A stretch of DNA of 27,149 nucleotides from a virus, in IMG/VR virus record IMGVR_UViG_3300047386_000464, positions 1-27,149 of that record, one strand, 5' to 3'. The translations under genes and the position numbers were made by a program. Under the pieces are notes generated by a model. It searched no databases. It was given only the letters and a program-made list of their open reading frames with translations, and was not told the origin of the DNA. Positions 2,564 through 27,149 of the stretch are shown piece after piece. Numbering within the stretch: position 1 is the stretch's first letter; every line of letters begins with the position of its first letter.

Positions 2564-3432
2564 ACTTCGCCACCATCAATATCATCAAAAACGGGTTGGC
2601 CGGATCCATTTATCTGCATAATTTGTCCATTGGTTCCTGTTATAAATGCTAATGTGTTTGCAGATTGAGCAAACAATATTCCATTTTGTGTGAAATTTGT
2701 AAGTCCAGTACCTCCATACTGAGTAGACAATACTGTTTCTAAAATTAATTCTTGAGCTTTAAGAGTATCACTAACAACAACATTTGATGATGTTATAGTT
2801 GCATTGCTAGAGTTAATCTCAACAACTACATTATTTGCACTATCTTTTACTTCTAGTACACCTTCATCTCCACTACCTCCAACAGAGGCATTAGCACCTA
2901 AAGATCCAGCAGTAAAGAATGGACCAATATATCTAGATCCAACTATATATATTTTATTTGTTCCTATAGTAGAAGGAAGGTTATCTCCAATAAAATTTAA
3001 TATTCCAGATTGATAGTCAAAAAACCATTCATCAGAATTACCAGAACCTGCTGCAAATAGTTGCGTGCCTCCAGTTGGATTAGCTGATCCTGCTGCATCC
3101 ACAGACACTTTTACCTGATATGTTGATCCAAACTCCGGAGGAATCCAATCAGTTGTTCCAGTTTTCCAAGTTCTTTTAGATGTTGAGGTTATATCTTCGG
3201 TTGTTTCTACTGCATTTGTTCCAGTATAAATTTGAACCACATCAGAAGATGTTGATGGCATAACTGTTGGAATTTCTCCAGCACTACTCCAAATTTTATC
3301 ACCTCTTAAAAGTAGAGGAGAAGGAATAGCTTCGTTAACAGCTAATTTTTGATCGTTAGTATCTGTTTTACTCGCACCGTAGCCAAGTTTTTTCCACAAG
3401 TAATCAATTTTTTGTGCATTAGATATTGCCAT
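2560..3432 (-). CDS. Virion structural protein, 290 aa
   Basis: The protein opens MAISNAQKIDYLWKKLGYG, then KTDTNDQKLAVNEAIPSPLL and LRGDKIWSSAGEIP. I recognise this opening from structural proteins of marine T4-like phages, where the exact role is unassigned. The middle (about residues 75-190) is beta-rich, with WIPPEFGSTYQVKV and GNSDEWFFDYQSGILNF. The C-terminal 60 residues hold a fibre-type module (YGGTGLTNFTQNGILF, then NGQIMQINGSGQPVF) and end DIDGGEV. It starts one base after the stop of the 1015-residue gene, and its stop overlaps the next start as ATGA. An appendage or baseplate-peripheral role is inferred from the context and the GGTGLT module. Confidence 0.7.
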   Translation of the reverse strand: MAISNAQKIDYLWKKLGYGASKTDTNDQKLAVNEAIPSPLLLRGDKIWSSAGEIPTVMPSTSSDVVQIYTGTNAVETTEDITSTSKRTWKTGTTDWIPPEFGSTYQVKVSVDAAGSANPTGGTQLFAAGSGNSDEWFFDYQSGILNFIGDNLPSTIGTNKIYIVGSRYIGPFFTAGSLGANASVGGSGDEGVLEVKDSANNVVVEINSSNATITSSNVVVSDTLKAQELILETVLSTQYGGTGLTNFTQNGILFAQSANTLAFITGTNGQIMQINGSGQPVFDDIDGGEV

Positions 3433-3433
3433 T

Positions 3434-6400
3434 CTACGAAACTTCCCCTACAGATAGTGATGAAATGCTATCATCACTATTTAGCGCAATACTAACTAGC
3501 ATTAAATTGTTAGTAGCATTAGATAAATTTTCAGTTCCGAGAGTTAGATCAAAATTTTGATTACTATAGGAAGTTCCATCAATAATTCTATCAGCTCCTG
3601 TGAGTGCACATCCATTTGATCCATTACCTCCGTTGGCGGTATCAGATCCTGGAACGCCAGATCCAGCATATTGAATGCTTGCATCCAACCATCCACTTAA
3701 TCCAGATGCACTATCAATTGCTGTTCCTGGAGCTGCAATATAGAATCCTGAAACTTTACCAGTTAGAGTGAATCTAACATTAGCCACATTGGTTCTCTTA
3801 AATGCAAATCTAAAATATTGTGTTCCAGATCTTCCTGTAGACAGATCTGGTCCAGCTGGCAAATATCCAGAAGATAAGTCGGTTGTAAAGTGTTCAAGCA
3901 AATTATATCTTACAATAGCCTCATCAGTTCCCGCAACCGTTACTGCGCCATTCCAAAAATTATTAGAATAATAGTCTGTTGCTGAATTAAATGATGGATT
4001 TGCTCCGGAGAATCCAGATATCCTCAACCCATCAGAATCAAAAGTTGCACCCAAATCATCTGAAACTGGTATAAGAAGTTCGTTGAAAGAAGGGTTTCCA
4101 GTGAAACACTGAATAATCGGAGAATCTACTATTTGATTGTTGTATCCGTTAACATTATGTGCTGTAAACATAACCTTGGCTGCTCTATCCCCAGAACCAA
4201 TAGTTATTGTTAAATCATTTAAAGAAGCTGACAAATTATTTGCATTCGGAATACCACCAGTCAATTGAGAAGAATTTAATGCTGTAGCATAAGTATATGT
4301 TGAACCAAAAGCTGTTCCAGTAGTCCCTACTATATTTGATGCAGAAACACTAAATGGAGAATTTGTGTCTCTATATGTTTGGCCAATAAGATCTGTAACA
4401 ACAATTCCGCTTAAAGTTAGTGTGTCTCCAGTATCATAATATGGAATGCCAGAAATATAATTATATGAAGCTGTTGCTTCAGTCACAGTGGCTGAAGACA
4501 CATCTACTGTTGGTGAATTTGAATGTGGGTCATAAACATAATACAATTCATTTGAATTACCTTCAGGAGTAGAAATTTCAGCTTTATTCACTCCAATGCC
4601 AGTCGATGAAACAATAGCACTAGTCAAATTTAATCTAGCCTTCGTTCCTGTCGTATATAGTCCTTCAGCATATATGCGAGCTGCAGCAGCTACTGTCACG
4701 CCAGCTGCGTTATAATTATAATAGTCTATAGAAGTTTCGTCAACAGTTATTGCAGATGCATCTGCATCATTCACATGTCCTTCTGGAGTACCTGTTGTGT
4801 GAAAATAGCTTGACATCGCAGATGTTAGGACAGCTGAACCTGTTGTTCTTGGAAAAGATGTAGAAATAGAATCTCCAGCAGATTTGCCAGAACCAATAAA
4901 ACCTGCGGCCAATTTAGGAGAAGTGCCATCAGAACTACTTGCCCAAGATACTGTTTTGGATCCTATATTATTTGGCGCTGAGATTGCAATATCAAAAACC
5001 TTTATCGTTTTTGTTCTATTGAGAGGAAAGATGCTTGGGTTTCCTATGCTATATGTATTCTGATATAAATTCACATTAAACGTGCCAGTTCCAGAATCGG
5101 AGCTATATGTCTTAGATAATCTTGCACCCTGTGGACCACCATTAGAAACTTTGCTGGGAATCAATACTTCTGCACCGCCATCACCCCAGTTGACTGCAAA
5201 TGTAGCTGTAGCTGATGAATTGGCAATGTTAGTTGTAGTGTTTTCTAAATAAACTGCCTGCCCAGTGTTGGCTTCAGTTACTATAGATGGTCCAGTAAGA
5301 TTATTATACACATCAAAGTTTGCAACTGGGTCAGCAACATATATTGTAATCATATCTGTGTTTATAAATTCTGCGTTACTTCCTTCTCCTGTAGCAGAAG
5401 TATTTCTAGCATATACTTCTACTGTGAATGGGCTATTAGTATTTGTTGCATACACGTGTGATGGGTTGGTGGTGGTGATGTTATTAGACCATTGCCCATC
5501 TCCCCAATTCACACTATATTCATTTGGATTTCCTGTAGCAGTTATCGTAAGAGTCACATTTGTTCCTGCACCTCCGGAGGTTGGTGAGGCTGAAAAGGCA
5601 ACGTCTCTGACAAAGGTGTTTTTTGAGATATTAAACATAGCCTCATTTAACCTATCGATAGCATCAAGGGTTGAGGTGTTTGCTGTTAAAGAAGTTACTG
5701 CCCCATCGATAACAGACCCATCTTCTGTTGGTGTGCCTAAAGTAATGAGGTTTGCAGTTGATACAACGCCACTTAGAGAACTTCCATCTCCGATAAATTT
5801 ATTTGCATAAACAGCATTCCAAATATTATTATTTGATCCCAAGCTTTGAGCGTTTGATGTTGTTGGAATAATTGATGTATTTACTGAAGCGCCGAGAGAT
5901 ATAACGTCACCGCCATCACCTAAAGTGATATTGTCTCCTCGTAAAATAATATCTCCATTGACTTGAAGTCTGCTACGAATATAAACGTTATTCGCATAAA
6001 CATCGTTGTCCGATAGTAAAACCCCATCAATAGTTACGTTTGCTTGGAAGATTGCTACGTCTTGGACTTCAAACCCATCTAAAGAAGATGCGAAAGATAT
6101 ACCACCATTTCCATCATATGTGAGGAACTGCCCTCTACTACCGGAAGCAAATCCTATAAGTCCATTTGCTTGGCGATATAGAACACCATTAACTGTACCA
6201 GTCGATAAAATTAAACTATCAATTGTTGCAGTATTTTGTAGAGTTATATTCTCAGCTTCTAGACCTGATGGACCAAATAAGCTGCTTTCTAAATTGGCAA
6301 CTTTATCGACCAGCAGTGCGCCACCAATATATTCATTTGTTACTGATGAAGTTACATTATTTGTTTGCCCGATCCAAAGTTTGTTCGAGGAAAACGAATA

Positions 6401-23969: not shown

Positions 23970-24364
23970 TATCTTACTCTCTCTAATATTACATCTAATA
24001 TGACTGGATCTGGATCATTCTGTATCATAAATGCAACTGAAACAGCCAAAGTATGAGTTTCTTGATATTCTTCAACCTGAACTGCAATGAGATCTGCTCT
24101 TGGTTCAAAGTTGTTTATTGTTTCCTCTATAGAATCTTCCATCAATTTTTTTGTCAAGGATGTAAAAGGTTCAAATAGATAATTTCTGATTCCGCAACCA
24201 ATTAAAGGCTGGAATGGTCTTTCGTATGCTTCTGTGAGAATAAGACTTTTGACAGACTGACGTACTGCCTGTCTGTTTGTTTTCTTCGTTAAGAATCCAG
24301 TAATGGGATGAGCTGTGAAGCTCATATCTATGTCACTGAATATTTCTTCTTTTGGTTGAGGCAT
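23969..24364 (-). CDS. 25: Baseplate wedge/sheath initiator gp25, 131 aa
   Basis: Matches T4 gp25 (132 residues) in length and pattern. It contains FSDIDMSFTAHPITGFLTKK, then RQAVRQSVKSLILTEAYERP, FQPLIGCGIRNYLFEPF, and the EPR motif (Glu87-Pro88-Arg89) conserved in the gpW/gp25 family that also includes type VI secretion TssE. In T4 it joins the inner baseplate and the sheath. The start overlaps the upstream small gene by 32 bases, and its stop shares a base with the gp6 start (TAATG). A CAAGAGAT sequence lies about six bases before the ATG. Confidence 0.95.
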   Translation of the reverse strand: MPQPKEEIFSDIDMSFTAHPITGFLTKKTNRQAVRQSVKSLILTEAYERPFQPLIGCGIRNYLFEPFTSLTKKLMEDSIEETINNFEPRADLIAVQVEEYQETHTLAVSVAFMIQNDPDPVILDVILERVR

Positions 24365-24527
24365 TTTTTATCTCTTGTATTTCTTTTCTTCTTTCAGTAC
24401 ATAATTTAGAAATTTCAACAAGAGCTTTTCTTGCTCTCGTGCCAGCTGTTTTATTGTTATTATCGAAACTCTCACTTTCACGTACATACGTTTCAAAGAG
24501 GTTTACCAAATTATCATGAATGTTCAT
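24333..24527 (-). CDS. Small basic protein resembling Hc1/histone H1-like, 64 aa
   Basis: The ATG at 24527 has CAAGGA seven bases upstream and is preferred over an in-frame GTG at 24548 (71 residues). After a helical N-terminus (MNIHDNLVNLFETYVRES) the protein has NNNKTAGTRARKALVEISKL and CTERRKEIQEIKN. This resembles the GNKAAAxRxR...E...RKE pattern of chlamydial Hc1-type DNA-binding proteins; I have seen comparable short proteins in marine phage genomes. The C-terminus is basic (STKRRNIQ). It overlaps gp25 by 32 bases, so the two are probably coupled. DNA binding is plausible from charge and similarity but not demonstrated. A purely structural helix protein is the alternative. Confidence 0.7.
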   Translation of the reverse strand: MNIHDNLVNLFETYVRESESFDNNNKTAGTRARKALVEISKLCTERRKEIQEIKNASTKRRNIQ

Positions 24528-24565
24528 AATTTTTTCCTTGACGTTCACTTCAATTATAGTATAAT

Positions 24566-24589: not shown

Positions 24590-24898
24590 TTAGGCATTAC
24601 CTGCTAATACCTTTATTGCTCCTTCGGTAAGTGATCCTGCATCTGCATTATCACTTATTCTTGCAACCTTTGCACCCGCAACATAAACGTTTGGTGCACT
24701 TCCTATAATACTCGCAACATGATCTCCGCAAGTTGGTGCAGCTATTCCATGAGCTACAGTATTATCTCCCAATCTTGCAATTAACTTACCTTCAGCGAAA
24801 ACTGTAGATTGTCCAGGAGTATCTAAAGTTGTTGTTTCAGTGCAATCGTGACCTGTAGTCAATGCATCACTTTCTCTTGATATCCCCTTAGTGGTCAT
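24590..24898 (-). CDS. 5.4: PAAR spike-tip protein (gp5.4-like), 102 aa
   Basis: PAAR proteins cap the point of the beta-helix spike in contractile tails and type VI secretion systems, holding a metal ion at the tip. Visible features are an N-terminal SDALTTGHDC and QSTVFAEGKLIARLGD. Further on are HGIAAPTCGDH, SAPNVYVAGAKVARISDNAD, and a closing GAIKVLAG. Candidate metal ligands are His17, Cys19, His50, Cys57 and His60. The ATG at 24898 overlaps the upstream stop as ATGA and aligns with the usual PAAR start; an in-frame ATG at 24919 would add seven residues. Placement right after the spike gene matches gp5-gp5.4 in T4. Confidence 0.9.
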   Translation of the reverse strand: MTTKGISRESDALTTGHDCTETTTLDTPGQSTVFAEGKLIARLGDNTVAHGIAAPTCGDHVASIIGSAPNVYVAGAKVARISDNADAGSLTEGAIKVLAGNA

Positions 24899-26457
24899 GC
24901 GAATATTCCACTTAACCATCTAGGAGAATACTTACTTCTTCCGTCCATTCCCCAATGTTTTGCAGCTTGTTCTGAAACATTAACGCCTGCTGCAATATCT
25001 AAATGTATTCCTGTTCCACTCATATATTTTGCTCCCGCTCCAGCTGATAATTTATCTCCAGCTATATCTTTGCATGCGCTTATAAATGCTTTAACCTTTG
25101 CGGTATCTGTATGGGTTTCTGGTCTATCAGTTCTATATTGATATTTAAATTCTCTCGTATAGAGATATACATCAACCCCATATCCATTATCATGCCTTAC
25201 AGAGCCAGTTCTATTTATTCCGTTTCTCGCATTTGGAGAAGATTTAGCTACTTGACCACCACTAAATATTATGACATCTACATTAACTTTTTTTGCTGCA
25301 GACATTAATATATTTTCTAAGTCGGCGACAATTTTTGTATTTCTAATTTTTCCTGAGATTCTATATTCTACTTGCCCTGCATTAGTGCCTTCGCCACGTG
25401 GTTGTATTACACTAACTTCTGGAGTTTCTGGAATATATATATTTCCTTCACCACGATATACTGACGCCGCTCCAGAAGTTTGACCTAGATTGCTGGCCAT
25501 AGTAATTGCTTGTGTGCTTCTAGAAGTTTCACCATTTGGACCAATAGCCGTGTACTGAGGAAGTGGGAAATCAAAATCAAACTCCATCTCGCCAAGCTCT
25601 GTTTTAAATATTTCTAATTCACTGTCTGAAAAATCTGCACTGGGAATAGGAGAAATCGTCGCCGCCGATGCTCCTGTATCATTCATTTTAATGGTGGATC
25701 CATAAAGTGTCATTCCACTTTTTGAATTTAAATCCATCTCTGAGCCAGCGTGTATATTCATTTTCGAAGTCGATTTAATATTGACTTCTTTTCCTTTAAG
25801 GTTTAATATATTTTGAGTCGTGGCATTAATATTGCCAGAAGCTGCAAGTGTTACTGATGCATCAGCTTGAATATAACAATCTGATAAAGACAATAAAGAA
25901 ACAACGCCAGTAGATTTAATATTTGTTCTTCCCTCAGTTTTAACGCTTACATCCCCAATTGATTCTATCGCTACTTCTTCTCTTGCCCCAACATAAGCTG
26001 AACCGCCGACAGAGGCACGCATATCTCCACCAATATCCAGAGAAGCATTTCCTTCAATTCCTATATGCAATTCTGTCCCTTGTTGATGCAATTTATTTGC
26101 AGCTATAACAATATGGCCATCTGGATGTATTTCAATATACGCTCCAGATCTATGTTGGATGTTTATTCTTTCGTGATTTGGAGTATCATCATATTCGATA
26201 AGATGACCAGACTCAGTCGCATGAGAATGATTGTATGGGTATTGAGCATTGTATGGATCAGATAAACCTCCAGCCGAAGGTTTTTTTCTTTTAATGTTTG
26301 CCCCACCACCTTCTGCATTTACATTTAAATTTTCTGGTGGTGAATCTGATTCTGCAGGCTGGTCTAGATTTGCTGTTTGTAATTCTAATATAGAATTTTT
26401 AATTTTATCTAAATCAGCTTGTGTTTCTATATCAACATTATTTTTAGAAATTGACAT
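24895..26457 (-). CDS. Beta-helix spike (gp5 C-terminal equivalent) with M15-like peptidase domain, 520 aa
   Basis: Residues about 68-115 (NAQYPYNHSHATESGHLIEY, DDTPNHERINI) match the junction that begins the gp5/VgrG beta-helix. Residues about 115-265 are short beta repeats (GNASLDIGGDMRASVGGSAY, EVNIKSTSKMNIHAGSEM), fitting a three-stranded beta-helix needle. After a linker, residues about 360-490 look like an M15-type zinc peptidase. They contain SVRHDNGYGVDV with His422 and Asp429 spaced as in SxHxxGxAxD, then GAGAKYMSGTGIHLDI with His485. M15 enzymes cut peptide bonds of the cell wall, so this would add a peptidase to the puncturing device. ATG at 26457 overlaps the gp5 stop (TAATG), and AGGAG lies ten bases upstream. 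The spike role is well supported; peptidase activity is inferred. Confidence 0.85.
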   Translation of the reverse strand: MSISKNNVDIETQADLDKIKNSILELQTANLDQPAESDSPPENLNVNAEGGGANIKRKKPSAGGLSDPYNAQYPYNHSHATESGHLIEYDDTPNHERINIQHRSGAYIEIHPDGHIVIAANKLHQQGTELHIGIEGNASLDIGGDMRASVGGSAYVGAREEVAIESIGDVSVKTEGRTNIKSTGVVSLLSLSDCYIQADASVTLAASGNINATTQNILNLKGKEVNIKSTSKMNIHAGSEMDLNSKSGMTLYGSTIKMNDTGASAATISPIPSADFSDSELEIFKTELGEMEFDFDFPLPQYTAIGPNGETSRSTQAITMASNLGQTSGAASVYRGEGNIYIPETPEVSVIQPRGEGTNAGQVEYRISGKIRNTKIVADLENILMSAAKKVNVDVIIFSGGQVAKSSPNARNGINRTGSVRHDNGYGVDVYLYTREFKYQYRTDRPETHTDTAKVKAFISACKDIAGDKLSAGAGAKYMSGTGIHLDIAAGVNVSEQAAKHWGMDGRSKYSPRWLSGIFA

Positions 26458-27149
26458 TATACTGTAACTCCTGGACGAAAGTCTAGTTTATCTTCAGGTG
26501 TTCCGTCCAAGAATAATCTTTGTTCAGATATTCTTCGGTTGACTAACCCATTGACAATTTGACCACTTGCTTTATTATATAATAGTAATGCTTCAGAAAT
26601 TTCTCTATTACTTCTTTTTCCGTTATCGGTTAATGTGCGAAGAGTTCCTGATCCTAGATTATATGCAAAACTGGTTAAAGCATCTTTTTGTTTACCGGAC
26701 CAATTATATTTCCAAGTACCGTTCCATCTTTCAACTTGACTTGCAAAACTAGATAAGTTACTTTCAAGCCTAGTCTTTGCTTCTTCTTTCGTGATAACTT
26801 CAGAAGCAGAATTTGCCTTTGTTCCATATCCAATGCTGTATTGTTTATGATCCCAAAAAGCTTTTGGCGAAAATCCCTCAAAGGAAGCAACAATATCTAC
26901 CAATCCTGCTCCAAGATTTACGTTATTGGATAAATCTTGCGTGTCATATGGATCGATACCTCTAGATCTCGAATTAGTGGCTGGTCCAGTTTCTCTAGGA
27001 TAAACCCCATTTGGATCCTGAACTCCTCCTTGAGAAGAAAACCCATCATTGTATCCAGGAAGTGATCCCATCACTACAGGTTCTTGTGCTCTATTTCCAT
27101 CTAAGAAAAATCCTAAAACCCAAGAACCTTCTATTAATCCTGTAGGAGA
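26457..27149 (-). CDS. 5: Baseplate hub gp5 with tail lysozyme domain, 5' end outside window
   Basis: The frame is open to the right edge. The visible start SPTGLIEGSWVLGFFLDGN continues to AQEPVVMGSLPG, which matches the end of the gp5/VgrG OB fold. A GTG at 27074 is internal, not the start. Next is a linker, then a GH24-type muramidase: VASFEGFSPKAFWDHKQYS followed by IGYGTKA, with Glu (codon 26877-26879) and Asp (26850-26852) nine apart as in T4 lysozyme. Ser (26835-26837) sits near the catalytic Thr position. Helices follow (WSGKQKDALTSFAYNLGSGT, LVNRRISEQRLFLDG). In T4 this domain locally degrades peptidoglycan during injection. The gene stops about 15 residues after the lysozyme domain; the spike is a separate gene. 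Confidence 0.92.
   Translation of the reverse strand, partial: SPTGLIEGSWVLGFFLDGNRAQEPVVMGSLPGYNDGFSSQGGVQDPNGVYPRETGPATNSRSRGIDPYDTQDLSNNVNLGAGLVDIVASFEGFSPKAFWDHKQYSIGYGTKANSASEVITKEEAKTRLESNLSSFASQVERWNGTWKYNWSGKQKDALTSFAYNLGSGTLRTLTDNGKRSNREISEALLLYNKASGQIVNGLVNRRISEQRLFLDGTPEDKLDFRPGVTV

Follow-up and report, generated by a model that had tools for sequence, protein, structure and literature searches.

A candidate LAS-type peptidase domain at the end of a gp5-like phage spike encoded by a split gene

The spike gene and its neighbours

The window, that is, the whole analysed stretch of 27,149 nucleotides from a viral record, carries towards its end a gene for a spike protein composed of a beta-helix, a linker and a C-terminal LAS/M15-like domain (Table 1). 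Spike residues 67-212 align with residues 382-529 of a T4 gp5-type chain (phmmer, E 3e-13) and residues 66-268 match phrog_430 (2.4e-31); being alignable to gp5C, the helix is of the gp5 type. All three parts of T4 gp5 (PDB 1k28, 1pdl), the OB domain, the lysozyme and the beta-helix, are found in the window, but they are distributed over two genes instead of one: the OB domain and the lysozyme lie in the preceding gene and not on the polypeptide that bears the helix, and a linker and a LAS domain are added after the helix.

Table 1. Features of the spike gene and adjoining genes, in positions of the window.
Feature	Position	Strand	Basis
Spike protein gene, 520 aa	24895..26457	minus	composed of gp5-type beta-helix, linker and LAS/M15-like domain
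gp5C-like region and beta-helix, residues 66-262 (regular strands 106-260)	25672..26262	minus	phmmer, phrog_430, AF2 strands
Linker, residues 263-362, mostly predicted disordered, single helix 278-289	25372..25671	minus	full-length AF2
LAS/M15-like domain, residues 363-520	24898..25371	minus	profile comparisons, AF2 fold and structural matches
S399-G-G-Q402 strand motif, in place of M15 SGxR	25252..25263	minus	conservation in 49 sequences
H422, predicted zinc ligand 1	25192..25194	minus	49/49; aligns with SRH His of LysECD7/RB49 peptidase
D429, predicted zinc ligand 2	25171..25173	minus	49/49; aligns with AxD Asp of LysECD7/RB49 peptidase
H485, predicted zinc ligand 3	25003..25005	minus	49/49; register with MepK VHID (weak pairwise alignment)
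PAAR protein, 109 aa, 25-nt overlap with spike gene 3' end	24590..24919	minus	PF05488 E 9.1e-9
gp5 N-terminal half, OB domain + lysozyme, truncated at window edge	26457..27149	minus	Gp5_OB 1.1e-12, Phage_lysozyme 1.6e-20

The PAAR gene adjoins the spike gene and is followed by Gp25 and a gp6-like wedge protein, and in the related contig L001 a gp27-like gene (phrog_350) lies upstream. The gp27-like protein is thus encoded separately and within a phage tail cluster, which sets the spike apart from evolved VgrGs, the gp27-gp5 fusions inside type VI secretion systems (T6SS). The nearest cultured relatives of the gp6-like protein are found in Methylophilales and Pelagibacter phages (35-38% identity), so the virus is a member of the T4 superfamily and probably marine. 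An odd neighbour within the baseplate cluster is an ORF of 71 residues between gp25 and PAAR (24333-24548, minus strand), which matches the histone H1-like Pfam model Hc1 (E 6e-15).

The same division of gp5 into a gene for OB domain plus lysozyme and a gene for helix plus LAS domain is shared by the window with two independent contigs (L001, 2455-4913; L002, 3911-6369), the halves sharing one base in the stop/start overlap TAATG. The first gene of L001 (2455-3351) encodes 298 residues. A sequencing frameshift was considered as the cause of the split and rejected, as L001 and L002 come from other samples and show the same two genes, and the second gene begins with an N-terminal extension of its own. 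In T4, gp5 is cleaved during maturation into the same two pieces. Here a gene boundary replaces that cleavage.

Motif, conservation and family of the C-terminal domain

The first-pass annotation had placed an M15-like peptidase domain at 24988-25380, after the beta-helix. The location holds and the extent proves slightly larger, and the residues that it had named, S419, H422, D429 and H485, together with D487, are present at those positions in TGSVRHDNGYGVDV and GIHLDI. A DNA pattern written for the motif occurs once in the window and in none of 100 shuffles; the motif is not due to chance.

Relatives were collected stepwise, from IMG/VR, then from cultured phages and then with a wider alignment. 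Agrobacterium phage OLIVR1 was reached at E 8e-6. Rhizobium phages were matched only over a short stretch (E about 1), and the Rhizobium phage protein scores 95 bits against a family profile that itself includes that protein. Searching with a seven-sequence alignment gave 85 loci, 80 of which were kept. The family thus has members on 80 viral contigs and in two kinds of cultured phage; the cultured copies are annotated merely as 'virion structural' or 'putative tail' proteins. When the window and its near-identical copy were held out, the family profile still found the window domain with 111.6 bits (E 3e-34) and matched no other place in the six-frame window.

The three predicted zinc ligands are identical in every one of the 49 aligned sequences, as are S399, G401, G418, S419, R421, G425, G473 and M479. 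G400 and Q402 are kept in 48 of the 49, and these two as well as D423, Y478, W502 and G503 exceed 90% conservation. No Pfam, PHROGs or NCBIfam model matches the C-terminal domain by itself, or its first relatives, above cut-off; the curated cut-offs of Pfam Peptidase_M15_3, M15_2, M15_4 and VanY are reached by none of the corresponding comparisons with the window domain, and PF08291 has no match in the window. Two family members weakly match M15_3 (0.0061) and two VanY (0.012), each out of 49. A match of the domain to DsbD_N (0.06-0.22) is weak and at odds with the LAS evidence, and was taken as chance. With tblastn, the window domain had no match in 50,697 phage records, and no relative was met in the genome contigs scanned. 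The domain family is new and unnamed.

Fold and relationship to LAS/M15 enzymes

The AlphaFold2 model of the domain, computed from a 46-sequence alignment, has a pLDDT of 87.7 and a pTM of 0.86, and its predicted fold is that of LAS proteins in both structural searches. The first four Foldseek ranks against the PDB are Ply500, VanX, MepA and LysB4. In VIA-align, rows 1-21 are all LAS proteins (Z 8.1-4.9) and the first unrelated row follows at 4.7; they include ChiX (8.1), LysECD7 (7.7), Hedgehog chains (6.0-7.0) and VanXYg (4.9), besides MepA, VanX, RB49 peptidase, Ply500, EndoT5 and LysB4. Z values of 6-8 are modest and alone could reflect a common structural arrangement; for this predicted model, 21 consecutive matches from one superfamily are not expected by chance. 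The zinc motif described for LAS enzymes (PMC4087270) is present as H422-x6-D429 ... H485 in all 49 sequences.

Profile comparisons point in the same direction. The family profile searched against PDB sequences has M15C peptidases as its top three matches (E 0.0012, 0.0012 and 0.21), with H and D in register in the matches to 8q2g and 23ri (E 0.0012). Aligned by hhalign with a profile of eight M15C endolysins, it gives E 5.5e-6, and in a repeat a score of 43.8 against a best of 19.4 among 100 column shuffles. The single-sequence comparison with EndoT5 (E 0.0023) and the pairwise profile comparison with MepK (prob 1.3%, E 0.04) are weak taken alone. An M15 profile search thus yields no Pfam hit for the window sequence by itself, and it is the family profile that reaches the M15C structures.

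These results bear on the possibility that the H/D/H pattern arose by coincidence, in an unrelated domain that caps the helix structurally. Such a cap would fit with the fact that the window sequence on its own hits no M15 model of Pfam; conservation in all aligned sequences across very different proteins already contradicts it, as do the predicted LAS fold and a profile score far above that of 100 shuffles, so that chance resemblance is scarcely credible. The first-pass annotation had named two observations that together would count against its reading, the lack of an M15 hit and ligands lying far apart. Half of this was found, the missing Pfam M15 hit, but the predicted fold is that of a LAS protein.

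The closest enzymes compared, the M15C L-Ala-D-Glu endolysins LysECD7, RB49 peptidase, EndoT5 and Ply500 (PDB 8q2g, 23ri, 2mxz, 2vo9), share the LAS fold with the spike domain; the SRH-x6-D signature is in register and the third His lies in the last strand on both sides. They differ in that the M15C enzymes have D-x-x-H and an SGxR-type Arg, whereas the spike family has Y-M-x5-H, SGGQ and a W-G motif, and lacks an acid ahead of the last His. Moreover, the M15C enzymes are endolysins used in lysis, and the spike family is found on virion proteins used in entry.

The missing second catalytic motif and its meaning

A second motif is usual in LAS enzymes: HxH, the first His of which is catalytic, or an acid in its stead (PMC4087270). 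Among the 49 aligned sequences, no conserved His, Asp or Glu is found at positions -2 to -6 of H485, so the family lacks this second motif. Likewise, the D-x-x-H that is invariant in the M15C endolysin alignment (A5) is absent from the family, which conserves SGGQ, RHD, YM and WG with neither an HxH nor an acidic general base. As the canonical second motif is missing, the domain is assigned to the LAS superfamily, on the strength of its fold and zinc motif, and to none of the named M15 families. Of the M15/VanY-type peptidase that had been proposed, the LAS fold, the M15C profile similarity and the invariant H/D/H are borne out, and the VanY detail (ExxH/DxxH or HxH) is not.

In Hedgehog proteins, the zinc site of the LAS fold is retained and the role is one of signalling. 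The spike domain might similarly have an intact metal site and no hydrolytic function, serving as a module that binds the cell wall or a receptor. The unconserved HxH and acidic general base would fit such a role, and the lowest rmsd values (2.6-4.1 A) belong to Hedgehog chains, which rank high among the structural matches. Against this, E. coli MepK (YcbK, Peptidase_M15_2/M15_3), annotated as a peptidoglycan L,D-endopeptidase, likewise has neither an acid nor a His between -2 and -6 relative to its last His (YPRSNFVHID), and the gap in the family is thus compatible with activity. In a weak alignment, the H-x6-D, a Tyr at -7, the H-x-D and a later Trp of MepK match the family register, although MepK is a cellular enzyme. 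LdcB E204A also keeps residual activity (PMC4087270). The domain, moreover, takes the place of a lysozyme or a transglycosylase in other entry proteins, as described below. A pure binding module is accordingly an unlikely reading.

The C-terminal 158 residues are much more readily understood as a LAS-fold (M15-like) zinc peptidase that would hydrolyse peptidoglycan peptide stems or crosslinks at entry, and this is the assignment held with good confidence. Zinc binding, hydrolysis, bond specificity, trimer geometry and timing are all inferred, and the activity is a predicted one.

A shuffled module of phage entry proteins

The domain recurs as a shuffled module of phage entry proteins. In the window, as in contigs L004 and L012, it is attached to the end of a gp5-like helix. 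In L033, a gp5-like protein (3170-5797) carries it after the OB domain, in the place of the lysozyme, and a 1051-residue spike in L022 (4687-7839) combines an OB domain, a DUF2345-like helix, the LAS domain and a C-terminal SLT transglycosylase. L034 has it at the end of a gp27-like hub (phrog_350), the N-terminal part of which resembles the gp27-like protein of L001 (E 7e-19). At the start of a T7-gp16-like internal virion protein in L042 (5971-9732), it precedes a match to phrog_342 (1.8e-154), the internal virion protein with an endolysin domain. This match starts at profile position 179, and the transglycosylase region of the profile is near 30-92; the N-terminal transglycosylase thus appears to be replaced by the LAS domain. 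L044, L046, L050 and L058 were judged to be like L042 by length and domain position only. Among cultured phages, the domain is present in gp022 of OLIVR1, a virion protein that adjoins the virion RNA polymerase, and in a Rhizobium phage tail protein.

Standing in for lysozyme and transglycosylase domains, the module would be expected to cut the wall at entry, and this substitution is the best functional evidence, of a comparative kind, in support of wall cutting. Two side observations concern its neighbours. A separate lysozyme-like gene lies just downstream of the helix-plus-LAS spike in L004 (6344-7111) and L012 (6873-7514), called from a weak phrog_7 match in the former and from resemblance in the latter. 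Near the end of the L033 protein there is a weak amidase match (phrog_822, 0.003), and this spike or hub possibly bears two peptide- or amide-cutting domains.

An enzyme of this fold might instead act on tail proteins, as an assembly protease or in autoprocessing, e.g., to release the spike tip. Processing steps do occur in phage tails, the maturation cleavage of T4 gp5 being an example. Such a role is very improbable: with the two gp5 halves encoded by separate genes, that cleavage is not needed, the unrelated entry proteins in which the domain is found share no substrate, and the nearest solved relatives of the domain cut peptidoglycan.

Geometry of the tip and comparison with known systems

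A C-terminal peptidase had seemed puzzling close to the tip where the PAAR protein should dock. The full-length AlphaFold2 model is poor (overall pLDDT 55.8) and usable only for the borders of linker and domain. It has regular helix strands up to residue 260 (pLDDT 60-79 over residues 161-260), low confidence over 262-358 (mostly below 50 in 262-277 and 287-358) and a confident domain from about residue 363. With about 100 predicted disordered residues as a tether, three domains could hang beside the PAAR-capped helix. The puzzle is thereby eased, and further so because evolved VgrG2b and, by annotation, gp5 of phage phiM12 also bear C-terminal enzymes.

VgrG2b of the Pseudomonas aeruginosa T6SS has a gp5-like helix on a PAAR-tipped spike and a C-terminal zinc metallopeptidase acting in the periplasm (PMC6899460). 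It differs in being a thermolysin-like HEXXH enzyme (gluzincin) with a TTR-fold linker and an effector with an immunity protein, not part of a phage (PMC6899460). The Sinorhizobium phage phiM12 encodes, between gp27 and gp25, a gp5 (L096 3512-5125) whose sequence beyond the helix is annotated as a muramidase (COG4678), followed by an M15_3 gene (gp110). By this annotation, phiM12 gp5 is a phage counterpart of the evolved VgrGs. The window looks like its mirror arrangement: the helix bears the muramidase in phiM12, with the peptidase as a separate protein, and the peptidase-like domain in the window, where the lysozyme belongs to another protein. Unlike the window domain, gp110 is a canonical M15_3 protein (8e-19), and BLASTP found no direct kinship between the two.

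In Anabaena cyanophage A-1(L), the hub gp15 has a glycan-cutting (endoglucanase) and a peptide-cutting domain, both assayed with mutants (PMC10966104), so a baseplate that combines the two activities is already known. Both domains are there on the hub, whereas the window phage has its peptidase-like domain on the spike helix (PMC10966104).

For the window phage, the first-pass annotation had proposed two wall-cutting activities at the tail tip. The lysozyme is present, in the neighbouring gene, and peptide cutting is supported by fold and motif, its hydrolysis being predicted. During infection, the spike with its PAAR cap would be driven across the outer membrane. Glycan strands would be cut by the lysozyme, which is carried on the separate OB protein, and peptide bonds by the peptidase domains, three if the spike is trimeric, on disordered tethers beside the spike. 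If the helix leaves the lysozyme part as in T4, the peptidase would be carried with it into the periplasm. Given the predicted activity, the phage thus probably cleaves the glycan chains of the wall as well as its peptide links during entry.

Novelty and significance

Peptidases at phage baseplates and enzymes on gp5-like helices are already known as such. The new elements are the unnamed family, the modular use made of it in entry proteins, and its position on a split spike. On balance, though with less assurance than the assignment of the domain itself, the family is regarded as a so far unrecognised group of LAS peptidases with non-canonical catalytic residues that serves as an interchangeable wall-cutting module in the entry of contractile-tailed, N4-like and T7-gp16-type phages, replacing lysozymes or transglycosylases; here it would sit on the spike tip, opposite a lysozyme moved off by the gene split.

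The family gives a name to a wall-cutting module that annotation with the Pfam, PHROGs and NCBIfam models used here misses, and it could provide a LAS peptidase with unusual catalytic residues. Enzymes at the tip of gp5 helices, as in the evolved VgrGs of the T6SS and, by annotation, in phiM12, recur in phages. The position of the module in place of lysozymes and transglycosylases makes a two-enzyme model of entry, with glycan and peptide cutting combined, testable in the cultured phages OLIVR1 and RHph_Y65.
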